Source: Candidatus Obscuribacterales bacterium
GTDB taxonomy: Bacteria > Cyanobacteriota > Vampirovibrionia > Obscuribacterales > Obscuribacteraceae
Direction: 5' to 3'
Assembly (NCBI GenBank): GCA_020050685.1
Contig: JAGVKG010000069.1
Location: 1-64,000, forward strand
DNA: 64,000 bases
The notes beneath the pieces were generated by a model. It was not told the origin of the DNA. It worked only from the letters and a program-made list of their open reading frames with translations, and made no database searches. A program made the translations under genes and the position numbers. Below are positions 5,806 through 57,295 of this stretch, in pieces; within the stretch, counting starts at the first letter, position 1; each line of letters opens with the position of its first letter.

Positions 5806-7881
5806 CTATTCGCGAGTCCCCAGCGATGGGTCGTGTGTACGCTTAGCTAGTTGAACGGAATACGTGAGCAACCAGCGCACGTTATTCAATTTGCCTAGCA
5901 GAAATTCGCTGCGACCAGTTCGCTTAACTAAAGGCTCCGACCGCAGCCATTGCTTGGCGGAGTTCTCTAGCTGGCTCACCTTATCTAGAACCGCTTCAAG
6001 ACTGGCTTGTGAAGAGCCTTCTGTAAGCTGTTTCAGGTCGCGCTGAATTTCTTTGATTTGCGCAACAACCGTGCTAGATTCGTGAGTGGTGGCAAGTACT
6101 TGCGTGCACCCACTGTCTGTACATTCGATTGCTCGCACCGCGAAATCCTCATATACGGACTTTGCAGCCGTAACTGGTTTTTCGTGCGGCACGATTAAGC
6201 TAAGCTGCGAGGTCGATTGACGATTGGGACCAGTCTTGATAATTCGTTCTTTGCTGTCTTGCAAATGCGCAACAGCAAACAGCGTCGTCCCAAGAAATCC
6301 CAACTTGTTCGCAGCTTCGATATGGTCGATGAGCAAGGCGGCAGGATAACGATCGATAGATGTTCCCGGATACACCAGACAGAAATCTTTCACAGAGTCC
6401 CGCACGAATGCGCAGGCATCGGAAAAATCTTTCGTATCAGGTGCATACGTCATCGGATTGATCACATCGATCAGCCCTTCGTTTGCCCATACTTCCCAAT
6501 GTTGCTGAATTGCTGCAATTCTGGCTCGCAAGGGCGTAGCGTAAACTGCGGCAGATATGGTCATGCCCGGGCGCAACTTCCGCAACGTACGCGAGGCATC
6601 GCGCACAAAGTTGGTTACTTTGGTTGCTTTCCAGGTATGCCAGACTTCTCTAGTCTCTCTGTCCAATTGATCGGACCGACTCGGCAACTTGTAACCAGGG
6701 TTTTCCTGCTCGAAAGCAGTACGGCTAATCGCATCGAATCCCATCTCTGTTCCCGACAATTGCCAGGGAAAGCGGATGTAATCCAATTGAATGCCGTCGA
6801 CCTGATAAAGAGTTGCAACATCGACCATCTCGTCAATTCTCAACATGCAAGCGCGTTTGTTGGCTGGGCTGAGCCAAAACTCCGGTTGCCCAGGTGGATT
6901 GGGAGAGCCTCTGTCCGAGTGCAATCCAAGCGATTGATCCTTTTCCAAAACTGGACCAGGATAGTCGTCACTTGTATTTGGATTGATGCGGTTGTGTCCT
7001 CTGCTGCCGACAGCAAATGTCCACATCCAGGCATGCAGGGACATGCTCCGTTTGTGAGCAGCAACCACTGCTGCACCAAGCGGATCATAGTTAGGCGCGA
7101 TAAGAGGATTTTTTGGCACCTTCGGTTTGTGCGTTACCGGATCAAGCGATGCGTTATACATTGCATAACCGGCATTGTTCGTTTCAAAGTACACGGTGTT
7201 GAAACCGGTTTCCTTGAGCCTGTCGAACAACGCTTCCATTCCCGCATCGTTTTTGGTAGCAACGATGGTGCCGCGATCCAACCAAATGCAGCGCGCTTCT
7301 GCTAAGGGTAGCGGCATGGCCATACCATTGGCGGTGGCATAGTCTTCACGCGCCAGCTCGAATTCCTTTTGAGCAAGTTGAAACATGCCAGCATCAAGAG
7401 CTTTCTTGAATGCTTGCGTGTGGCTACGGGCAGAAGCAAGTATTCTTTCAATTGCTGCAAATGGCACATCAAGTTTCATTTGTCGGGCAGTGGCCAATTT
7501 TGCCTCGACGGCCAGATCTCTTGAGGAGAGATCCTCTTGCCGATTCTTACTGTCCGCTAACATTTCTTGTGCGAGCTGTTTGATCACGCCGAACAAATCT
7601 AGATGTAAGTGCTCCGCAGGCTTTCGCCTACTCTGCACGTTCGCCCGCTTCACTCCGCATTGCTCATCGCAATACTGCGTTTCGCTGAGTTTGCCTGTGA
7701 CTGGTTTCATGTTCGTGGGGCGCGATATCTGACTGCGCTTGAATCCGTTGAAGAAATTTTCGCGCCAATTGCTCCCGTTCCAGGCATCTGCCTCCTGAGC
7801 TGTAGTAACAGTCAGAAGTGCAAAACCAAGAAGCAAGACAATCAATCTCTTAGTGTGTTTCTCAAGTTCTTGGTGTTGCAT
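5806..7881 (-). CDS. Exported GHL10 (DUF187) glycoside hydrolase-like protein
   Basis: 691 aa. A signal peptide (hydrophobic residues about 12-28, cleavage near AQEADA) indicates export. A central TIM-barrel region (about 195-530) has the hallmarks of glycosyl hydrolase-like family 10: an early strand with FNTVYFETNN, a segment with YDPLGAAVVAAHKRSMSLHAW, and VDGIQLDYIRFPW. The last 140 residues are helical and family-unspecific. The related families are thought to act on envelope polysaccharides; the substrate here is not known. GGAGG precedes the start. The leader carries a terminator-like hairpin 20-50 bases upstream of the ATG. Confidence 0.88.
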   Translation of the reverse strand: MQHQELEKHTKRLIVLLLGFALLTVTTAQEADAWNGSNWRENFFNGFKRSQISRPTNMKPVTGKLSETQYCDEQCGVKRANVQSRRKPAEHLHLDLFGVIKQLAQEMLADSKNRQEDLSSRDLAVEAKLATARQMKLDVPFAAIERILASARSHTQAFKKALDAGMFQLAQKEFELAREDYATANGMAMPLPLAEARCIWLDRGTIVATKNDAGMEALFDRLKETGFNTVYFETNNAGYAMYNASLDPVTHKPKVPKNPLIAPNYDPLGAAVVAAHKRSMSLHAWMWTFAVGSRGHNRINPNTSDDYPGPVLEKDQSLGLHSDRGSPNPPGQPEFWLSPANKRACMLRIDEMVDVATLYQVDGIQLDYIRFPWQLSGTEMGFDAISRTAFEQENPGYKLPSRSDQLDRETREVWHTWKATKVTNFVRDASRTLRKLRPGMTISAAVYATPLRARIAAIQQHWEVWANEGLIDVINPMTYAPDTKDFSDACAFVRDSVKDFCLVYPGTSIDRYPAALLIDHIEAANKLGFLGTTLFAVAHLQDSKERIIKTGPNRQSTSQLSLIVPHEKPVTAAKSVYEDFAVRAIECTDSGCTQVLATTHESSTVVAQIKEIQRDLKQLTEGSSQASLEAVLDKVSQLENSAKQWLRSEPLVKRTGRSEFLLGKLNNVRWLLTYSVQLAKRTHDPSLGTRE

Positions 7882-7901
7882 TGTGCCTCCGAAAGCCCAA
7901 A

Positions 7902-7939
7902 CAAAAAAGCGACCTCCGGTCGTATGACTGGAAGTCGCT
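7902..7939 (-). promoter_or_regulatory. Terminator-like leader hairpin (possible attenuator)
   Basis: On the minus strand a 14-bp, nearly perfect stem with a four-base loop is followed by six T, ending about 20 bases before the start codon at 7881. No minus-strand gene lies just upstream, so it may control read-through into the GHL10 gene. Confidence 0.55.
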
Positions 7940-8349
7940 GGTAAATGTTGTGAATTGTTTGTTGTTAGAGAGTTGGTGGGCTGGTTATGGGTTGGTCCGA
8001 ACGTTTATTGGGTAGTGATACATACTTTGAATTTATCCATTATGTATGTACTAATTCAATAGAAATTTGAAATGGAACATATAGCGCAGATGCGCTCACC
8101 ATGCGTGTCGTGGCGCTTGACATCGAGCGTACGAGAATAGCCGCGAATGTACAATGAACACGCAATATCGGTTGTCAAGAATAATGTGTACAAAAAAGAG
8201 TGCCACCACCAGCGGTGTTTGGTGCTTTGTCAAGAAGAGGGCGCGTTAAGCCTTCGACAATTTTCGCAAACGAATGAAAGCTTTAGTGCTTATTGACAAC
8301 CAATCGATGAACTAATGGTGGTCTAAAACAAGACACACACTGGAATTAG

Positions 8350-9061: not shown

Positions 9062-9073
9062 GGCTATCCTTAT

Positions 9074-9112
9074 GAGAGGTCCTTCGTCGCGCTGCGCGCT
9101 CCTCAGGATGAC
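9074..9112. repeat. Dispersed repeat (GAGAGGTCCTTCGTCGC type)
   Basis: Palindromic intergenic unit ending CCTCAGGATGAC. Related copies lie at 9921-10019, 29198-29226 and 46536-46641. Units of this kind are common in many bacterial genomes. Confidence 0.75.
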
Positions 9113-9143
9113 AGAATATTGATTCCCGGGGATGGCGATCTAT

Positions 9144-9839
9144 TTAAGGGACGCGGTACATTTTGTTGGGCAGCTTAACGCAGTTTTCGGCATAGCCACC
9201 GGTAAGGTCGGAATACTGATCGCCGATATTGAGGACAATTTTGAAGCCCATGTCTTCAATTTGTTTTCTCAAAAGCGGTTTGACGATTTGTGCTGGATCT
9301 TTCGGCGCAGCATCCGGACGCATATAAAGCCCGTCGTAAGCTATTTTGTCGCGCACCAGATTTTCAATCGTGGCACCGCGAAGATTCTCATTGCGCCCTG
9401 TAATTAGAAAAACGGCATAGCCATTTTGTCTTGCCCAAGCCAGCAAATCGGCCGTCGGCTTCAAGACAGGTGCTTTCGCTTCCTTGATCCATGATTCGAA
9501 TGCCTTCCAGCTCCAAACCGGATTCTGTATATAGTCTTCACGATTGTCTAAAAGCGTCTCATCTATGTCGGCGACAATTGCCACATTCTTTTCGCCAATG
9601 TGTTTTTGCAAAGCGGCTTTAGCTGAGTCGATCGCGCTATCAAATTCCTTTTTGAATTCCGCAGTTTCGGTAAACTTCAAACCTTCTTTGTGATCTTCCG
9701 GTTTCGGTGTGGACCAGATCATGCTTTCCGTTACTTCGGAACACGGGCAAGCTGCTGCGGTTATCGGCGCGGAAGCTACCTGAACAGCACTAAGGGAAGC
9801 GATCAATAAAAGAATACGACCGGCAACGTTGAGACGCAT
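9144..9839 (-). CDS. Exported HAD acid phosphatase (class IIIB type)
   Basis: 231 aa. A signal peptide covers about residues 1-29 (cleavage before a CPCS segment). The HAD motif I DIDETLLD has its nucleophile at Asp91 and acid/base at Asp93; motif II is FLITGR. A conserved Lys occurs in the KPLLRKQIE region, and GDQYSDL provides the motif IV acids. This matches the HAD superfamily acid phosphatase family (PF03767), secreted enzymes that release phosphate from organic monoesters. GGAGG lies before the ATG. It stands alone with dispersed repeats on both sides. Confidence 0.88.
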   Translation of the reverse strand: MRLNVAGRILLLIASLSAVQVASAPITAAACPCSEVTESMIWSTPKPEDHKEGLKFTETAEFKKEFDSAIDSAKAALQKHIGEKNVAIVADIDETLLDNREDYIQNPVWSWKAFESWIKEAKAPVLKPTADLLAWARQNGYAVFLITGRNENLRGATIENLVRDKIAYDGLYMRPDAAPKDPAQIVKPLLRKQIEDMGFKIVLNIGDQYSDLTGGYAENCVKLPNKMYRVP

Positions 9840-9920: not shown

Positions 9921-10019
9921 GTCATCCTGAGCCGCAGGCGAAGGACCCTCATATTTCAATGAAGTTCTTCGTAGGAGCATGAGAGGTCCTTCGTCGCGCT
10001 TAGCGCTCCTCAGGATGAC
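9921..10019. repeat. Paired inverted copies of the dispersed repeat
   Basis: GTCATCCTGAG... at 9921-9950 faces ...CTCAGGATGAC at 9981-10019, giving a long potential hairpin. The rest of the gap 9840-10340 shows no gene; a short TTG frame at 10052 has no ribosome binding site. Confidence 0.75.
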
Positions 10020-10340
10020 ATGCTGTGTAGCTTGATGAAACGCCGCTCACATTGGCGCTTTTCAATTTAGTATCAGTCTGCGCTAGCTTGCGTATGCGGA
10101 AATTGTGCATACGCTCAAATCTTCTTCCTAAATACTATTTTTCAAGAACTTGTTTTTGTTACGGTCAGGTCAAGATGTATCCCCATTCGCTTGCAAGAAA
10201 AACACCTCAAAAAACCACCAAGCCAGAACTAGTGATGCACACAGATTGAACGGACGCTAAAAGCATCCAACCACTTAGTAGGACTAGCTGTTCCTCGCAT
10301 AGGACCGGCTGGCTGTTCACACCCTTTGGAGATTAGAGCC

Positions 10341-10762: not shown

Positions 10763-11212
10763 ATGCCGTATTCAGATAGAGGTAGAGAAGCAGGTGAAGA
10801 CCTGTTCAAAGAAGCGTTGCCTGAATTGTTCAAAACAGGTAAAGCCGGTTTCATGACAGCGGAGAATGGTGGCATGACGAAGTTCATTATGGACGACGAC
10901 GTGCGCATGCAAGTTCTCACCGTTTGGATGGAACTCGTCGATTATCTGGGCAACACAACTCACATCGCCACGCCTGATGAGATAGAAGAAGGCTTTGTTC
11001 GTTTGCTTGCACGTGAAGACGAGCCGGCTTGGACAAATGCCGTGCGCGGCGTGTTCAACACGGCTTTCGGTGAAGGCAAAGTCGATGCTGGAGTCACTCA
11101 CCAAAAGGAGTTGATGCCGATTCTCAAAGACGAGTCGGTGTCGAAAAAGGCGATCACGGATCTGATCGACGACATCCTCGACTGGATGCGCAATCGCATT
11201 GACGCGACGTAA
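10763..11212 (+). CDS. Hypothetical protein, 149 aa
   Basis: Unrecognised, acidic, probably all-helical and soluble, with regularly spaced short helices and a C-terminal DDILDWMRNR helix. A perfect AAGGAGGT site seven bases before the ATG fixes the start. It is co-transcribed with the sigma region-4-like gene and ends at a strong terminator. Confidence 0.8.
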   Translation: MPYSDRGREAGEDLFKEALPELFKTGKAGFMTAENGGMTKFIMDDDVRMQVLTVWMELVDYLGNTTHIATPDEIEEGFVRLLAREDEPAWTNAVRGVFNTAFGEGKVDAGVTHQKELMPILKDESVSKKAITDLIDDILDWMRNRIDAT

Positions 11213-11231
11213 TCGCCAAAGCAAAACCGTC

Positions 11232-11265
11232 AAAAGAAGAGCCGGGCAAACCCGGTTCTTCTTTT
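11232..11265 (+). terminator. Rho-independent terminator
   Basis: Stem AAAAGAAGAGCCGGG / CCCGGTTCTTCTTTT with a short CAAA loop, 20 bases after the stop at 11212. The 3' arm ends in TTTT. Confidence 0.85.
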
Positions 11266-30849: not shown

Positions 30850-31983
30850 ATGAGGTCGAGAACATTTTGGCTGAATAAAATTGAACTCTACTGGCAAAAG
30901 CGTCCTATTATTTGGATGTCCGGAGTTCGACGTGCGGGAAAAACCACCCTGGCGAGATCCGTGCCTGGAGTCGAGTATTTTGATTGCGAGAGCGCGGCAA
31001 CAAGATACTTGTTTGATGATATCGAAGCTATTCTTGCTAAGCTCAAGGGCAAGCGAATAGTGATTGACGAAATCCATCGTTTGTCCAACCCTGCGGAAGT
31101 ACTTAAGCTGGCACATGATTATTACCCTGAGACAAGAGTACTTGCCACCGGTTCTTCCACTCTGGGTATATCGGATCGATTTAAAGACACCCTAACAGGC
31201 AGAAAGTACGAACTGTGGCTAACTCCTATGAATCACCGCGATTTGGTCGACTTTGCAAACGAGGAATTTTCGCACCGGATGTTGCATGGTGGACTACCAC
31301 CATTTTTTTTGGCCAGCGAAATCCAAGAACAGGATTTTGAAGAGTGGCTTGATTCATTCTGGTCTAGGGACATTCAGCAACTATTTCGCTTGCAACATCG
31401 CTCTGCTTTTTTAAAACTGGTGGAGTTGCTCTTTGTTCAAAGCGGCAGTATTTACGAAGCGACAAGATTCGCGCAGCCATGTGAAATAAACAGGCAAACA
31501 GTCAACAATTACCTGGCGGTACTCGAACACACTCACACCGTTCATGTAGTCCGCCCTTTTACCAGCCGTAAATCTTCCGAAATTATATCCGCACCAAAGG
31601 TTTATGCGTTCGACACGGGATTTGTTAGTTATTTCAATGCCTGGTCTCACCTTACTCGCAGCAACCAAGGTCATTTGTGGGAGCATCTCGTTCTTAACGA
31701 ACTGCATTCGTATTTCCGCCCACAACAAATTCAGTATTGGCGAAACAAACAAGGAAACGAAATTGACTTTGTTCTTATTAAGCGCGGACAGCCTCCAATT
31801 GCGGTGGAGTGTAAGTGGCGATATAGAGATTTTGACATAAGTAACCTTGAGTGTTTTAGACGAGCTTATCCGCAGGGTGAGAACTTTGTTGTGGCAAGTA
31901 ATATTGATAAGGCATTTACCAAACAATTCAAAAATTTGACAATCACATTTCTGGGATTACAGCACATAGCACAGCTCACCTGA
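30850..31983 (+). CDS. AAA_14/DUF4143 ATP-binding protein 1
   Basis: 377 aa. Walker A GVRRAGKTT (25-33), Walker B VIDEIH (71-76) and sensor-like LATGSS make up the AAA_14 domain. The C-terminal DUF4143 has KQGNEIDFVL...AVECKWR, a PD-(D/E)xK-nuclease-like arrangement. Cellular role of the family is poorly known. A second gene at 34703 encodes a close paralogue on the opposite strand. There is no obvious ribosome binding site, and the ATG is 20 bases from a perfect inverted repeat. Confidence 0.9.
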   Translation: MRSRTFWLNKIELYWQKRPIIWMSGVRRAGKTTLARSVPGVEYFDCESAATRYLFDDIEAILAKLKGKRIVIDEIHRLSNPAEVLKLAHDYYPETRVLATGSSTLGISDRFKDTLTGRKYELWLTPMNHRDLVDFANEEFSHRMLHGGLPPFFLASEIQEQDFEEWLDSFWSRDIQQLFRLQHRSAFLKLVELLFVQSGSIYEATRFAQPCEINRQTVNNYLAVLEHTHTVHVVRPFTSRKSSEIISAPKVYAFDTGFVSYFNAWSHLTRSNQGHLWEHLVLNELHSYFRPQQIQYWRNKQGNEIDFVLIKRGQPPIAVECKWRYRDFDISNLECFRRAYPQGENFVVASNIDKAFTKQFKNLTITFLGLQHIAQLT

Positions 31984-34702: not shown

Positions 34703-35833
34703 TTATAAATTGGCTATGTCGGCAAGACCAATAAAGGTGACCTCAATGTCCTTCAATTGCTTCGTTGTTGGTGTGGTAACATCACTTGCCACCACGAAGT
34801 TGCGTCCTTCGGGATACAGCCTTCTAAAACTGTGAAGATTGCTTGCGTCGAAGTCTTTGGTTCGCCATTTGCATTCAATAGCATCTGGCGCTTTCCCTCG
34901 TTTAGCTAGAACAAAGTCGATCTCCTGCCCCTGTTTGTTACGCCAGTAGAGTATTTGGCGTTGCAGAAAGTATGAATAAAGTTCATTTAGCACCAGGTGT
35001 TCCCACAATGCTCCACATTCTTGCGGGTGCAATTCCCTCCAACCGCGGAAGTAGCAAACGAAGCCGGTATCAAACGCGTAAGTTTTTGGAGCCGAGGTTA
35101 TCTCGGAGCTTTTTCTGCCACTAAGAGGTCGAATGACATGCAGGACATTTGTCTGCTCCAATATTGCCAGATAATTGGTTATTGTGGAGCGATTGACCTC
35201 GCATGGACCGGCAAAGCGAGTAGCTTCAAATATAGTGCCGCTCTGGATAAACAGTAGCTCGGCCAATTTTAGGAATGCTGTTCGCCGCTCAATTCTGAAC
35301 AACTCTTGAATGTCCCTTGACCAGAAAGAGTCCATCCACTCTTCACACTCGTAATCGGGCGGCGACTGTGACAAAAAGAACTGGGGCAGCCCGCCATGCA
35401 GCAGTCTATGTTTGAAATCCAGCGAGCCGAAGTCGTTGAGATCGGCGAAATTCATGGGGGTCAGCCATGCTTCAATCTTGCGCCCGGTCAGTGTGTCTTT
35501 AAATTTGCTTGAAATCTCAAGGCTGGATGAGCCTGTCGCAAGTACACGCACCTCTGGGAAATGGTCGTGCGCAACCTTGAGCAGCTCGGAAGGGTTCGGC
35601 AATTTGTGAACTTCGTCAAGAATTACTCTTTTGCCTTTTAGCTTATTCAAAGCCTTTAAGGTGTCCTCGAAGAAGAACCTGGACGGAGCTAGTTCACAGT
35701 CAAAGTATTCTGTGTTGGGCAAAGATTGAGCCAAAACGGTCTTGCCGGCTCGCCGAACTCCCGATAGCCATACAATTCGCCGTTTCTCCCAGGCGTTTTC
35801 GATTCGCTGCAGCCAAAAATTGCGTAACTTCAT
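34703..35833 (-). CDS. AAA_14/DUF4143 ATP-binding protein 2
   Basis: 376 aa from the ATG aligned with paralogue 1 (KLRNFWLQRIE versus RSRTFWLNKIE); an in-frame ATG 24 bases upstream is less likely. Walker A GVRRAGKTV, Walker B ILDEVH and C-terminal QEIDFVL...AIECKWR are all conserved. More than half of the residues match paralogue 1 by eye. The gene is opposite in orientation to 30850, and a perfect 16-bp palindrome lies 37 bases upstream. Confidence 0.9.
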   Translation of the reverse strand: MKLRNFWLQRIENAWEKRRIVWLSGVRRAGKTVLAQSLPNTEYFDCELAPSRFFFEDTLKALNKLKGKRVILDEVHKLPNPSELLKVAHDHFPEVRVLATGSSSLEISSKFKDTLTGRKIEAWLTPMNFADLNDFGSLDFKHRLLHGGLPQFFLSQSPPDYECEEWMDSFWSRDIQELFRIERRTAFLKLAELLFIQSGTIFEATRFAGPCEVNRSTITNYLAILEQTNVLHVIRPLSGRKSSEITSAPKTYAFDTGFVCYFRGWRELHPQECGALWEHLVLNELYSYFLQRQILYWRNKQGQEIDFVLAKRGKAPDAIECKWRTKDFDASNLHSFRRLYPEGRNFVVASDVTTPTTKQLKDIEVTFIGLADIANL

Positions 35834-46535: not shown

Positions 46536-46641
46536 GTCATCCTGAGCACCGAGGCGACCCAGAGAGTCGCCGAGCGAGGGACCTCTCATATTTTTCGTTG
46601 AAACATGAGAGGTCCTTCGTCGCTTTGCTCCTCAGGATGAC
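46536..46641. repeat. Paired dispersed repeat
   Basis: GTCATCCTGAG... and ...CTCAGGATGAC face each other around CATATTTTTCGTTGAAACATG, as at 9921-10019. The rest of the gap to 46911 is AT-rich and empty except for a possible CCCGAT / ATCGGG operator pair (46837-46873). Confidence 0.8.
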
Positions 46642-46911
46642 ATGTTATTGGTGCATTTCTATTTGATCACCCCAATAAATTGATCACAAAATGCCATAAT
46701 TACATAGTCATTTATATCGCTTGCAAATACTCACGCATATATCAACCGTATAGGCTGTTTGCCAGATAGAAGTAAAGCGATCCCCGAAAGCCTCACAGGG
46801 CTTGAGTTTTAGGTAGTCAATAAGTTCCTATAAAAAATCCCGATTGATCTGTGCGAAACAGTGTATGATCGGGTTTAATGTGTATTTTACCGTCCACTTA
46901 AAGGCGTCAAA

Positions 46912-47565
46912 GTGCCGCGTATTCCCGATCCTAAGATGCGAGCTCTAATCATCCAGGCCTGCCAGGCAAATGACGGCTGGCTGCGCCAATCGGCGCTGGG
47001 GCGGGTTGGCATCCATTCGCGCTGGATAGCCAGGCTGGTGGAAGAGGGCACAATCACCCGAGTGCGCAAAGGGCTGTATCGATTGAGTGCCGCGGGCGCG
47101 GCTTCGCATTTATCGCCAGACCGCCCGACCGGAAGCGAGCACGATCTTTTGGACGCTTGCCGCGCTATTCCCCAGGGAGTTATTTGCCTGGCATCGGCTT
47201 TGGCCTATCACAATCTGATAGCCTCATTCCCGCCTGACGTTTACGTGGCGATGCCAAAACATATGTGGGTTCCCAAAGTTACCTATCCGCCGCTGTCGAT
47301 ATTCCGCTTTTCAGAAAAGATGTTGGAAGTTGGTCTGATTGAGAAAAAGGTAGGCAAACGAATGCTTGCCGTATTTGATGCCGAAAAGTCCATTTGTGAT
47401 TGCTTGCGATTGCGCAAAGTAGTCGGGCAGGAAATTGCGATTGAGGGTCTGCGCAATTACTTGGCTAAGCCGGGAGCAGATGTCGAAAAGTTGGTGAAGA
47501 TGGCTCACGAATGTCGGGTCGAGGCGAGACTAAAAACCTACCTGGAAGTGTTGCTCGTTCCCTAA
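46912..47565 (+). CDS. AbiEi-type antitoxin/regulator, orphan (GTG start)
   Basis: 217 aa. The N-terminal winged helix (MRALIIQACQANDGWLRQSALGRVGIHSRWIARLVEEGTITRVRKGLYRL) and central SASALAYHNL- and FRFSEK-type segments match the AbiEi antitoxin family of type IV systems. AbiEi normally represses its operon and counters an AbiEii nucleotidyltransferase toxin. No AbiEii gene follows: the next gene encodes a coiled-coil protein. So this is an orphan or a different regulator. A weak AAAGGCG site precedes the GTG. Confidence 0.86.
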   Translation: MPRIPDPKMRALIIQACQANDGWLRQSALGRVGIHSRWIARLVEEGTITRVRKGLYRLSAAGAASHLSPDRPTGSEHDLLDACRAIPQGVICLASALAYHNLIASFPPDVYVAMPKHMWVPKVTYPPLSIFRFSEKMLEVGLIEKKVGKRMLAVFDAEKSICDCLRLRKVVGQEIAIEGLRNYLAKPGADVEKLVKMAHECRVEARLKTYLEVLLVP

Positions 47566-47622
47566 TTGTGTTGGCACAGCCGCCCACCTCTTGAAAATCA
47601 GATTAGATGTATACTAGAAATT

Positions 47623-47655
47623 GAACTTTTTGCCACCTCAAACGTCTTATTAAGT
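47623..47655 (+). promoter_or_regulatory. ECF-like promoter, site C
   Basis: TTGAACTTTTTGCCACCTCA, then AACGTCTTATTAAG. There are 14 bases between GAACTT and CGTCTT, and the start codon is 39 bases after CGTCTT. Confidence 0.65.
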
Positions 47656-47687
47656 AGGGGCGTTTCAGATTCATTGGAGGATCGGCG

Positions 47688-48065
47688 GTGGATATCTACA
47701 GAGAGCTTATTGATACATTTAAGACAGAAATGCGGTCTGGTTTCGGTGCTGTTGTGGAGCGACTCGATCGGCACGAAGTTCAATTTGAAAGAATGAACCA
47801 GCGGCTTGACGATCATTCAACGCAGTTGCTTGGTATTAACCAGCGGCTTGACGATCATTCAACGCAGTTGCTTGGTATTAACCAGCGACTTGGCGATCAC
47901 ACCAATCGTTTGACGGGACTAGGTAAAGACATTCGTGACCTCAAGCGCACGCTCAACGATCATATGACCGGTATTGGCAAATATCTGGTTGCCATTGATA
48001 AAGACGTAAATGATCATGAGCGTAGGATTTCAGATATTGAGAAAAAACGCCCGGACAAAAAATGA
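47688..48065 (+). CDS. Tandem-repeat coiled-coil protein, 125 aa (GTG start)
   Basis: GGAGGATC precedes GTG at 47688. Residues 37-78 hold three 14-residue units NQRLDDHSTQLLGI; the first two are identical even as DNA (42 bp, 47796-47837 and 47838-47879), a sign of recent duplication. The C-terminus GIGKYLVAIDKDVNDHERRISDIE matches the paralogue at 23979-24452. It is a short rod with a conserved foot. The shared ECF-like promoter suggests common regulation. Function unknown. Confidence 0.78.
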   Translation: MDIYRELIDTFKTEMRSGFGAVVERLDRHEVQFERMNQRLDDHSTQLLGINQRLDDHSTQLLGINQRLGDHTNRLTGLGKDIRDLKRTLNDHMTGIGKYLVAIDKDVNDHERRISDIEKKRPDKK

Positions 48066-51527: not shown

Positions 51528-52040
51528 TGCAGTTACCTCCTATGGAAGTGCGAACGCCCCGCACGAATGCGAGGCGCTCAAGAGTTGTGGCGTTATGGTC
51601 TAGGCGAGTCATGGCACCTAGCGTCACGCCAAGTGTCTATTTCTTCCGAAGCTTACTGCTGCGGAGGGATTGGTTAGTACTTGAACTAGCTTTGTTTTTG
51701 GGGCTTAGAAGACTCGTTGTAGATGAAGGGCGATATACGTAGTTTTACCCTACCGAAAATGCAGTCTGGAAACCTAATTCAAGCTTTTTAAGGTTGTAAA
51801 CACAGTACATTCGAATGAACTACCATCTGCTAGCTGCGCTATGTTCTGCTCATGCTTATCCGGTCGACAGATACATTGCGACGCACGCTACTTGCGCTAA
51901 GTTGCGCTAACCGTGATAGTGGCACTTTCATAGTAGAAATACGCAGAAGCAATTGAGTTCTTATATTCAGAAGCGTAGATTCGAATCAAGAAATGGATTA
52001 CACCAATTTTTTTAAGGACAAAACCTAAGAGCCCCCCATA
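51528..52040. other. Intergenic gap upstream of the direct repeat
   Basis: No gene. TTGCGCTAAGTTGCGCTAA at 51892-51910 is close to the GTGCTAAGTTGCGCTAG before the second repeat copy (54237) and GTGCGCTAGGTTGCGCTAG at 57327. Confidence 0.5.
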
Positions 52041-52230
52041 GCACTAGCCATCACTTATTCAGCCATTACCTTCTCCGTCATTGTCACGGCAGTAAGATGC
52101 CGAGGGATGACTGAAGAGTAGTGGAGTCGATGGAAATGCTTGGCGGCGCGCACGAGGTCGCGTTCCTTTGTTCGATTACTACGAATAACAACCTAGAGCC
52201 GCCCGACCAGAGCAAGTCGTAAAAATTCTG
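52041..52230. repeat. Direct repeat, left copy (about 190 bp)
   Basis: Matches 54247-54468 over most of its length; the right copy has about 33 extra bases. On the minus strand it keeps an open frame containing FYDLLWSGGSRLLFVV in both copies. The two copies flank a 119-aa gene and a DUF4143 ATPase. Confidence 0.8.
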
Positions 52231-52314
52231 CTCGTAATATTTCGGTGGAAGAGCCGAGACGCTTAGCAAGCGATTATCGACTGAGGGTTCAGTTATTTAG
52301 TAGGAGAGAAAGGT

Positions 52315-52674
52315 ATGAATACCTTTAATGTAAATCTGGTCCGCTCTCTCGAAATTGTCCGCGAGTTCGCGGCCGACAAACGATGGAAAGGATGGGAGCT
52401 TGATGAAGCAAGTGAAAAAATTGAATCGGCCTGCAATGCCGAGGGACATGTGCAGCTTGCCTTGCTTCAAGGCGCTGTCGAGTCGTTAAAGCTAACGCCA
52501 TGGGTTCTCATCGGTACTACCGGTGAAGAGCTAATGGAATGCATTACAGCCTGCATCCAAGAAGCGGGGGGATCTATCAGTGAAAACTGGTGGGAATCAC
52601 AATACGATGAGACCTCTCACTTAGAAGGAAATATCCTCTGCGGCTTCCCTGAAGGAAAGCCGTGGTGGGTCTAA
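52315..52674 (+). CDS. Hypothetical protein, 119 aa
   Basis: Unrecognised. AGGAGAGAAAGG precedes the ATG. Helical N-terminus (SLEIVREFAADKRWKGWELDEASEKIES), then a mixed domain rich in Trp and Glu (VQLALLQGAVESLKLTPWVLIG, ENWWESQYDE). Acidic and soluble. It lies in the segment between the two direct-repeat copies, 158 bases before the ATPase. Confidence 0.74.
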   Translation: MNTFNVNLVRSLEIVREFAADKRWKGWELDEASEKIESACNAEGHVQLALLQGAVESLKLTPWVLIGTTGEELMECITACIQEAGGSISENWWESQYDETSHLEGNILCGFPEGKPWWV

Positions 52675-52765
52675 CAAGTTTAGGCGGCCGACTATAACCT
52701 TCGCCAACACCAACGGCCGCACAAGACGAAAGCCCGCTACCAAGCGCCTTTCTCTTGATTTGTGA

Positions 52766-52782
52766 CTACTATTACACATAGC
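52766..52782 (+). repeat. CTACTA-N7-TAG dyad, copy 6
   Basis: CTACTA, seven bases, TAGC. The only exact copy found outside a convergent gap; it lies between two plus-strand genes. Confidence 0.55.
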
Positions 52783-52804
52783 ATGAAAAGCAAATCCTTC
52801 ATAC

Positions 52805-52825
52805 AATGGTAGCATTGCTACCATT
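52805..52825. promoter_or_regulatory. Perfect inverted repeat before ATPase gene 3
   Basis: AATGGTAGCA-T-TGCTACCATT, ending eight bases before the chosen start codon. Confidence 0.7.
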
Positions 52826-52832
52826 TGGTGGT

Positions 52833-54128
52833 ATGATTGAATCAGCTCCATTCGGGTTGAATCCAATGCTCTTATCCAGAAGTTTGTCCACTCGTCTGCT
52901 GAATTCGTTTGATCACTCACCGGTTGTTTTCTTGAGTGGTGCGAGGCAGTCCGGCAAAAGCACTCTTGTTGGTCAATTGGCCAAACGCATGCATCAGGCG
53001 GAGTACTACACATTTGACGACGCCCACACTCTAGATCTGGCGTTGGCAGACCCTCAAACTTTTGTAGAGTCACTGAAACTGCCGGCCATCATTGACGAAG
53101 TTCAGTTAGTTGACAAAGTAGCTAGAGCAATAAAACTAGTAGTCGATAGGTCTCGCAAGCCTGGAATGTTCTTACTTACTGGCTCTGCTAGTGTCATGGT
53201 GCTTCCTAAGCTCTCAGAAGCCCTGGTTGGCCGCATGGACACGCATACGTTGTATCCGTTTAGTCAAGGCGAACTTGCCGGCATCAAAGAAGACTTTCTG
53301 AAATTTGTGTTTGATGGCAGACTCAAGATGTCTGGAGAATCATCCGTTGGCAAAGCCGCCAAGGGAGAGAACCTGAAGTCAGATCTGGCAGACAGAATTT
53401 TGAGAGGGGGTTTTCCGGTTGTGGCACTTCAGGATAATGCAGCAATCCGGAAAGAGTGGTTTGGTTCGTATCTCTCTGACGTCATACGGCGCGAGGTGCG
53501 GCAAATGTCGGACATTGACCGCCTTAACAAATTACCATCACTGCTTGCTCACGTTGCATCAAGCATGGGCGGGCTTCTCAACGTTACCGATCTGGCTGGC
53601 AGGGCGGCTATACCGGCAGTCACGCTTTCCCGATACCTGACTCTCCTTAATGCCGCCTACTTAGTTGGATTTGTCAAACCCTGGTCGATGAAGTTGACTA
53701 ACACAATCACGAAGTCCCCGAAAGTGTACATGCTGGATACCGGACTGGCCGGCTATGTCCTAACTTTGGATAAATCGAAACTTCTAAGTGATGGGCAGGC
53801 ATTTGGACGCATGCTGGAAAATTTTGTTTATGCCGAGCTTCTTAAACAAACAAGCTGGAGCGCTCTGGATTGTGAGCTTTTTCATTTTCGCACTCGCACG
53901 GGTATCGAGGTGGACTTCATCGTCAAAGATCAAGACGGGAGATTAGTAGCATTAGAAATCAAGGCATCGACATCGGTCACACAGGATGATTTCCGAGGCA
54001 TCAATTATTTTGCCTCACATTTCAAACAGAAATTTACCAGGGGTGTCGTTCTCTATTGCGGAGATCGGTTGATTGCTTTTGGCGACAATAAATGGGCAAT
54101 GCCGGTGAGTATGTTGTGGGAGCATTAA
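52833..54128 (+). CDS. AAA_14/DUF4143 ATP-binding protein 3
   Basis: 431 aa from the ATG at 52833; ATGs at 52806 (inside the inverted repeat) and 52866 are alternatives, and none has a strong ribosome binding site. Walker A GARQSGKST, Walker B IIDEVQL and LLTGSASV mark the ATPase domain. The C-terminal DUF4143 region has TGIEVDFIVK...ALEIKAS. An inserted basic segment (about residues 170-200) is absent from the two paralogues at 30850 and 34703. The gene is flanked by roughly 200-bp direct repeats with the 119-aa gene. Confidence 0.9.
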   Translation: MIESAPFGLNPMLLSRSLSTRLLNSFDHSPVVFLSGARQSGKSTLVGQLAKRMHQAEYYTFDDAHTLDLALADPQTFVESLKLPAIIDEVQLVDKVARAIKLVVDRSRKPGMFLLTGSASVMVLPKLSEALVGRMDTHTLYPFSQGELAGIKEDFLKFVFDGRLKMSGESSVGKAAKGENLKSDLADRILRGGFPVVALQDNAAIRKEWFGSYLSDVIRREVRQMSDIDRLNKLPSLLAHVASSMGGLLNVTDLAGRAAIPAVTLSRYLTLLNAAYLVGFVKPWSMKLTNTITKSPKVYMLDTGLAGYVLTLDKSKLLSDGQAFGRMLENFVYAELLKQTSWSALDCELFHFRTRTGIEVDFIVKDQDGRLVALEIKASTSVTQDDFRGINYFASHFKQKFTRGVVLYCGDRLIAFGDNKWAMPVSMLWEH

Positions 54129-54246
54129 CGCTACAAGGAACGGCAACTTCATGAAAGTTTGCTCCGAGGGTGTCCTGTGATTTTGTTGATCCAGTTGTCA
54201 TTCTTGCACTGACTTCAGAGGTATGTCGTTGTCTTGTGCTAAGTTG

Positions 54247-54468
54247 CGCTAGCCATCACTTATTCAGCCATTACCTTCTCCGTCATTGTCACGGCAGTAA
54301 GATGCCGAGGGATGACTGAAGAGTAGTGGAGTCGATGGAAATGCCTTGGCTTATTCTGCTGGGTTCCGATTGCTCCTTATATAGGGAGCACGAGGTCGCG
54401 TCCTTTTGTCCGATTACTACGAATAACAACCTAGAGCCGCCCGACCAGAGCAAGTCGTAAAAATTCTG
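54247..54468. repeat. Direct repeat, right copy (about 222 bp)
   Basis: Partner of 52041-52230. The extra part includes a TTGCTCC-TTATAT-AGGGAGCA hairpin. A full-length open frame on the minus strand (54289-54597) shares FYDLLWSGGSRLLFVVI and ISIDSTTLQSSLGILLP with the left copy. Confidence 0.8.
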
Positions 54469-54490
54469 GCTTTTCGTTTTGTGCTGAAAA

Positions 54491-54507
54491 CTACTAGTAC
54501 GTCTAGT
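54491..54507 (+). repeat. CTACTA-N7-TAG dyad, copy 7
   Basis: CTACTA, seven bases, TAGT, then AAA, between convergent genes. Confidence 0.6.
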
Positions 54508-54572
54508 AAAGTATGATAAAAAATACAGAACATAATATAGCTTGCTGCGCAAAAATGATGGCACCACAAGAA

Positions 54573-54610
54573 CAATCAACCGCTGATGTTGGAGCATAAG
54601 CGGTTGATTG
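54573..54610 (-). terminator. Hairpin after the 109-aa gene
   Basis: A perfect 12-bp stem CAATCAACCGCT / AGCGGTTGATTG with a 14-base loop; no U-tract. Confidence 0.7.
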
Positions 54611-54623
54611 TCTATGGCGTCTG

Positions 54624-56206: not shown

Positions 56207-56613
56207 AATCGAACCTCCCGAGCAGATAACCTGCTCAATCGTCTATTTCGCTATGAAAAAATGTCCCGAGCCAAAACTGGCGCAGAACATATCTGGTATC
56301 ACTCATTTGCAAAGACTTCTCCTATTCAGCTGCGATGCTAAATGAAAGGTTGCCTTTGATTTGGAAATTGTATTGGGTAGAGCTTTTGGGCTATGTCCTA
56401 AACAAAAAAATGAGTTATATCAGAGAACCTCAACTTAGTAATTCTCTATAGTAAGAAACAAGAGAAACTTATATTTCGCGCGCGCGATCATTAGGGGAAT
56501 TACTAAGCGCAACAATTGGCGCGACCTAGCGCGCCGTCTAATGTTGCGTTTTTTCTCTGCCAAGGCATCCGCAGATTGTTTAGCGAGCGAGATTAAAATT
56601 CACCACTTGGTTT
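56207..56613. other. Intergenic gap upstream of BrnTA
   Basis: No gene. A CG-alternating tract at 56476-56486 (TTTCGCGCGCGCGA). GCGCGACCTAGCGCGCCGTCTAATGTTGCG at 56519-56548 is the third copy of the CATTAGACG/GCGCTAG element. Confidence 0.5.
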
Positions 56614-56648
56614 GAACTTTTTGCCTACCTCAAACGTCTTATATATGA
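56614..56648 (+). promoter_or_regulatory. ECF-like promoter, site D
   Basis: TTTGAACTTTTTGCCTACCT, then CAAACGTCTTATATATGAGG. There are 15 bases between GAACTT and CGTCTT. The BrnT start is 31 bases after CGTCTT. Confidence 0.65.
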
Positions 56649-56670
56649 GGGGCAGCAGGGGGAATTTGAC

Positions 56671-56985
56671 GTGTCTAGACATATCGTCTATACTAGCTAT
56701 GGCACATTTGAATGGAATGTGCACAAGCGAGAACAAAATTTGTTCAAGCATAATATTGATTTTTTCAAGATCACACCCATGTTTTCGCAGCCATGTCTGG
56801 ACAAGCGCGATGATCGAAGGGATTATGGCGAAATTCGTTGGGTGTCCATGGGTGAAGTCGAGGGCTTGGTCCTGCGTGTGACTTACACCATGCGAGCAGA
56901 CACGATTCGGCTTATTTCAGCAAGGAGGGCTAGTAGAAATGAAAGGAAAACGTACTTTTTATGGAGAACAAGATCTATTAGCTGA
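56671..56985 (+). CDS. brnT: BrnT-type toxin (GTG start)
   Basis: 104 aa. The BrnT (RelE-fold RNase) signature is complete: TFEWNVHKREQNLFKHNIDFFK, then GEIRWVSMGEVEGLVLRVTYTMRADTIRLISARRASRNERKTY. AGGGGG precedes the GTG. It overlaps the BrnA start by 47 bases. Confidence 0.92.
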   Translation: MSRHIVYTSYGTFEWNVHKREQNLFKHNIDFFKITPMFSQPCLDKRDDRRDYGEIRWVSMGEVEGLVLRVTYTMRADTIRLISARRASRNERKTYFLWRTRSIS

Positions 56986-57295
56986 GGATCGAACCGATTG
57001 GAAGCTGGTTCGAAAAATGAAAGACAAAGACATTGACTATTCGGATGATCCGGCAACTGATGAAGCGTTTTGGGCTGATGCAGAGTGGATTATCCCGGGA
57101 CGGAAGATAGCTTTGGGTGTGCGCTTTGACAAGGCTGTGGTTTCTTGGTTCAAAAGCCTTGGTCCAGGATATCAGACCAAGATGAATGCGGTGCTGCGCC
57201 AATACATGGAGCACCAGCTCATGAAAACGTCAAAGCCGCCAGCGCCAAAGACACCAGCGCGTAAATCCCCCGCACCCAAGAAACGCAAGAAATAG
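56939..57295 (+). CDS. brnA: BrnA-type antitoxin
   Basis: 118 aa. The BrnA family pattern TDWKLVRKMKDKDIDYSDDP, then RKIALGVRFDKAVVSWFKSLGPGYQTKMNAVLRQYM, is a ribbon-helix-helix. The last 25 residues (KPPAPKTPARKSPAPKKRKK) are an unusual histone-like basic tail beyond the usual end of the family. AAGGAGGG precedes the ATG. Confidence 0.93.
   Translation: MKGKRTFYGEQDLLAEDRTDWKLVRKMKDKDIDYSDDPATDEAFWADAEWIIPGRKIALGVRFDKAVVSWFKSLGPGYQTKMNAVLRQYMEHQLMKTSKPPAPKTPARKSPAPKKRKK

Follow-up and report, generated by a model that had tools for sequence, protein, structure and literature searches.

The window analysed here, 64,000 nucleotides of contig JAGVKG010000069.1 from Candidatus Obscuribacterales bacterium, contains two direct repeats of about 200 bases each. 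Sequence comparison within the window places them at 52041-52230 and 54246-54468. They bracket a 119-aa gene and a DUF4143 ATPase gene, as ORFs and Pfam confirm (Table 1). The preliminary description of this DNA had reported both the near-identical repeats and the two genes between them, and both observations hold. Its end point for the right copy, 54468, also stands, and its start point of 54247 is corrected to 54246. Each copy is made of two blocks. The 99-base first block (52041-52139 versus 54246-54344) is identical at 98 of 99 positions, and the 81-base second block (52150-52230 versus 54388-54468) at 78 of 81. With an E value of 3e-64, the repeats are the strongest pair in the whole-window self-comparison; therefore, chance is excluded. 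The longest runs of unbroken identity between the copies are 96 and 58 bases.

Table 1. Coordinates of the repeat copies and of the genes that they enclose (positions in the window)
Feature	Position	Strand	Basis
Outlying piece of left repeat, matches 54233-54254	51891-51912	+	20/22 identical; among own-genome matches of both flanks
Left-only 128 bases, from outlying piece to main left repeat	51913-52040		Alignment
Left copy, first block, 99 nt; + strand folds as long hairpin	52041-52139	+	98/99 identity; fold
Left copy, short dissimilar middle	52140-52149		Alignment
Left copy, second block, 81 nt	52150-52230	+	78/81 identity to 54388-54468
119-aa orphan gene	52315-52674	+	ORF; codon score 0.15
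AAA_14 + DUF4143 ATPase, 440 aa, PADLOC candidate-defence family PDC-S01	52806-54128	+	Pfam; PADLOC
Right copy, first block with short upstream extension	54233-54344	+	Alignment
Right copy, longer dissimilar middle with small hairpin	54345-54387		Fold; alignment
Right copy, second block, 81 nt	54388-54468	+	78/81 identity to 52150-52230

The differences between the repeat copies cluster in the middle. Between the two blocks, the alignment leaves about 12 bases on the left and about 45 on the right, and these stretches are dissimilar; three single-base differences lie close to them. The right copy had been credited with about 33 extra bases. Its middle is indeed longer, but there is no clean insertion, as the two middles are unlike each other. 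Farther upstream, a 22-base block matches the right flank (91% identity), where its counterpart extends across the beginning of the right copy. Judged by this match, 128 bases on the left are probably extra. These bases have no second copy in the window, and they are edged by 9-base near-repeats that we noted by eye in the alignment. Directly past the right copy is a 40-base near-perfect palindrome (54572-54611), possibly a terminator.

The 119-aa gene is preceded directly by a purine-rich sequence that, by eye, resembles a ribosome site, and its codon score exceeds the 95th percentile of shadow frames. Searches with Pfam and PADLOC-type profiles placed it in no family. Relatives were found neither in 98 other genomes nor in plasmids, phages and viral contigs, and none of 41 pattern matches in species genomes was confirmed. 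A single-sequence structure prediction of the protein was poor (mean pLDDT of 47). The ATPase matches the PADLOC profile PDLC04790 (PDC-S01) over residues 20 to 440 with an E value of 1.8e-142. By this match it is a member of the PDC-S01 candidate phage-defence family, with a putative anti-phage role. The passages of PMC12988326 that describe PDC-S01 present it as a fusion of an ATPase domain with a PD-(D/E)XK part, place it fourth in frequency among the defences of prokaryotes, and give experimental validation as pending for most such candidates (PMC12988326). The closest relative of the ATPase, in genome G031, is 65% identical, and the 3.2 kb fetched around that gene do not contain the repeat.

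A 380-aa gene adjoins the module and occurs in only 1 of 50 family genomes, namely this one. Because no relative of the 119-aa gene was found and this neighbour is so restricted, the region appears to be accessory. An AbiEi-like gene (46912-47565, PADLOC-type profile match) and a BrnA-like gene (56939-57295, Pfam) both lie within 6 kb of the module.

Within the scope of our searches, the repeat is confined to this genome. The genome (4.2 Mb, 70 contigs) holds the two copies, 2.2 kb apart, and no third. A blastn search of 98 other genomes, 49 from the same family and the rest from the same order or class, with none from the same genus, returned short chance-level matches only, the best with an E value of 0.005 over 27 bases. 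A covariance model built from the two copies gave nothing convincing in the 49 other family genomes; one weak match spanned 41 bases (E value of 0.25). Plasmids and phages contained no copy by blastn, and two 18-mers from the repeat had no match in viral contigs. One 18-mer had 18 matches in a collection of species genomes, none extending past about 23 bases, which we attribute to chance. Across the window, Rfam gave nothing at gathering score and chance-level matches alone at E values up to 10. We take a pair of short motifs in the repeat's 3' block to resemble the 16S decoding region, but this likeness was set aside as chance on the lack of any Rfam SSU match in the window.

The preliminary description had proposed that the repeats encode either a small conserved protein or a conserved structured RNA. 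As far as searched, the repeat occurs only here, with neither covariation nor a coding signature, and this counts against a conserved product of either kind. For the protein, both copies do keep an open minus-strand frame, as had been reported (52084-52269, 61 aa; 54289-54597, 102 aa). However, the frames start outside the repeat, in unrelated flanks. Their codon-usage scores of -0.10 and -0.13 are at the level of shadow frames (mean of -0.09, standard deviation of 0.13, n = 144), and neither frame has a Pfam match above the cut-off. Moreover, in the 81-base block none of the three substitutions is silent, and three residues of the frame differ as a result. A small protein encoded on the minus strand is hardly credible in the face of these results.

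We considered whether the repeat could instead be a lineage-specific structured RNA gene in two copies. Such an RNA, its hairpin stable and its middle variable, would serve the module as a leader or regulator. The plus strand of the first block folds into a hairpin at 54253-54338 (-33.7 kcal/mol, z score of -3.97), and it folds better than the minus strand (z score of -2.60). The concentration of copy differences in the middle is also consistent with such a gene. However, among 400 background windows of 86 bases, 3.25% had z scores of -4 or below and 6.25% had z scores of -3 or below, so the hairpin falls in a range that 3-6% of the background attains. Elsewhere in the repeat, stability is unexceptional, with z scores of -0.2 on the right and -0.7 on the left. 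Covariation is uninformative, because the copies do not differ in the hairpin block and no homologue was found; Rfam likewise has no match. In a consensus scan, promoter-like and terminator-like sites were not in excess, and neither copy had a promoter-like site; one terminator-like site fell within the left copy (52145-52164, plus strand). A conserved structured RNA is thus unsupported by any homologue, and we consider an RNA gene of this kind unlikely.

We suggest, with moderate confidence, that the repeats, which flank a small accessory module, stem from non-coding DNA that was duplicated locally, or that a defence-type module was inserted duplicatively. Because the only two copies lie 2.2 kb apart, either event is favored over a dispersed element. 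Most likely, the repeat pair arose as the module was gained or duplicated at the site. It could have come from a tandem duplication after which one gene set was lost, or from incoming DNA that recombined here and brought an equal flank with it. Afterwards, the copies would have acquired indels, and the middle would have been rewritten. The near-perfect outer blocks beside a dissimilar middle call for an extra event, either gene conversion or repair. The middle may have been rewritten locally at a later time, or the ends may have been converted. A simple tandem duplication might have left a likeness between the sequences that follow the two copies; against this, the sequence past the right copy is unlike that past the left. 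The genomes searched, none of which is of the same genus, yielded no empty site.

Two insertions of a non-autonomous, MITE-like element would also account for repeats with discrete boundaries, and the 9-base near-repeats at the edges of the left-only bases could be taken as a trace of them. But such an element would be expected elsewhere in the genome, which has no further copy, and the repeat comparison of the window gave no terminal inverted repeats for it. We regard this origin as highly improbable.

We then looked at DUF4143 genes in regions from the same family. There were 86 DUF4143 matches, of which 65 were tested, 4 lie in the window, and 17 were left out, mostly on short contigs; the ATPase bracketed by the present pair is not among the 65. 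Seven of the 65 lie between direct repeats of at least 60 bases, compared with 1 of 200 control slots from 20 hand-picked regions. In the first batch, 5 of 44 genes were spanned, with 1.44 expected from sliding windows in the same regions; in the second, 2 of 21 were spanned, with 1.04 expected. The window holds three more DUF4143 genes besides the bracketed one, and self-comparison found no such repeat around any of them. Coding paralogues account for at least two of the seven spanning cases: the pair at locus L086 and one at L134. At L134, one of the pairs overlaps another DUF4143 gene. Against the controls, the Fisher P value was 0.0003 for all seven cases and 0.014 for the four that remain when L086 and the two L134 pairs are left out. 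With the local expectation of 2.48 as the reference, the Poisson P value was 0.014 for seven and 0.24 for four. Relative to the local expectation, the excess therefore shrinks to non-significance once the coding paralogues and doubtful pairs are dropped. In addition, the DUF4143 regions are richer in direct repeats overall, with 92 pairs in 972 kb, some of them pieces of tandem paralogues, versus 4 in 400 kb of control regions. The spanning effect may therefore be regional. That DUF4143 genes commonly lie between direct repeats is a lead only.

Two of these family loci have a layout like that of the present pair. At L079, about 230 bases comprising the 3' end of a 16S rRNA gene (6640-8147) and the adjoining spacer are duplicated about 2.9 kb downstream at 93% identity (8071-8298 and 10941-11169), and the duplication surrounds a DUF4143 ATPase module. 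No 23S match was found in the 10 kb scanned. The 16S end of another genome, G002, matches the left copy at 91% and the right copy at 86%; because the L079 copies resemble each other most, this pair, too, looks like a local duplication. At L073, 72 bases from the 3' end of a 256-aa gene occur twice without any difference (6611-6682 and 11163-11234). The two copies bound 4.5 kb that contain a DUF4143 ATPase and toxin-antitoxin-like genes, which we take to be HigBA-like. A check for an empty site at this locus found none.

The preliminary description had also noted that the arrangement suits a module that can be excised or amplified. The layout allows this, and the module is possibly excisable: RecA-type homologous recombination between the directly oriented 96- and 58-base identical runs could delete or amplify it. 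A stronger version of this proposal is that the module is an active cassette: recombination between its repeats would excise or amplify it and so switch a defence gene at the population level. The orientation and length of the identical runs, the candidate-defence gene inside, and the similar layouts at L073 (72 bases, 100%) and L079 (230 bases, 93%) are in keeping with it. However, no excised or amplified form was seen, and the dissimilar middle shows that homogenisation has not reached the whole of the copies. The genome encodes two PF00589 recombinases, on contigs C32 and C25, but the contig of the window (C13) has no tyrosine recombinase, and no recombinase was found among the module genes and the neighbouring proteins scanned. 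An active switch is quite unlikely on this evidence. A still broader proposal, which we judge very unlikely, is that the DUF4143/PDC-S01 modules of the family move as integrase-free cassettes whose insertion duplicates 70 to 230 target bases, among them gene ends like the 3' end of 16S rRNA, and that the present pair is such a footprint, which would keep the module excisable.

The preferred reading, a local duplication or duplicative insertion, can be set beside known systems. Like the products of tandem duplication, the present pair is private, local, near-identical and directly oriented. Unlike them, it doubles only the flank, the genes being single, and it has a dissimilar middle within the repeat. 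Islands of the attL/attR type, which are bounded by direct repeats at gene ends, also carry accessory genes between their repeats, and L073 and L079, with duplicated ends of a 256-aa gene and of 16S rRNA with its spacer, resemble them in this respect. However, no integrase was found in the present module, and its repeat touches no recognised gene. The usual attachment cores are far shorter than the present repeats. As for PDC-S01 itself, the bracketed ATPase matches its profile over most of the protein, as described above, but it differs in having an orphan 119-aa partner outside any known family. Long flanking direct repeats go unmentioned in the parts of PMC12988326 that describe PDC-S01, and among the papers listed for DUF4143, COG1373 and PDC-S01 none was on such repeats. 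As it stands, the locus shows a private duplication of an ordinary kind, set around a gene that is accessory and defence-like. If the wider association of DUF4143 genes with repeats were true, a very common and unexplained family of candidate-defence ATPases would gain a visible mode of gain and loss.

Several other repeated features occur in the window. Two of the DUF4143 ATPase genes (31038-31905 and 34778-35645) are inverted, facing paralogues with 64% DNA identity, and a methionine-synthase-like gene lies between them. A palindromic dispersed repeat is present at 9072-9113, 9979-10020 and 46591-46644, with two of its copies, directly oriented, on either side of an acid-phosphatase-like gene (9144-9839). 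Finally, the window self-comparison identified a motif of about 42 bases in common between 47621-47661 and 56612-56653 (88% identity). The first copy is 5' of a coiled-coil-like gene that starts at 47688, and the second is 5' of a likely BrnT/BrnA pair, in which BrnA was assigned by Pfam and BrnT by eye only.
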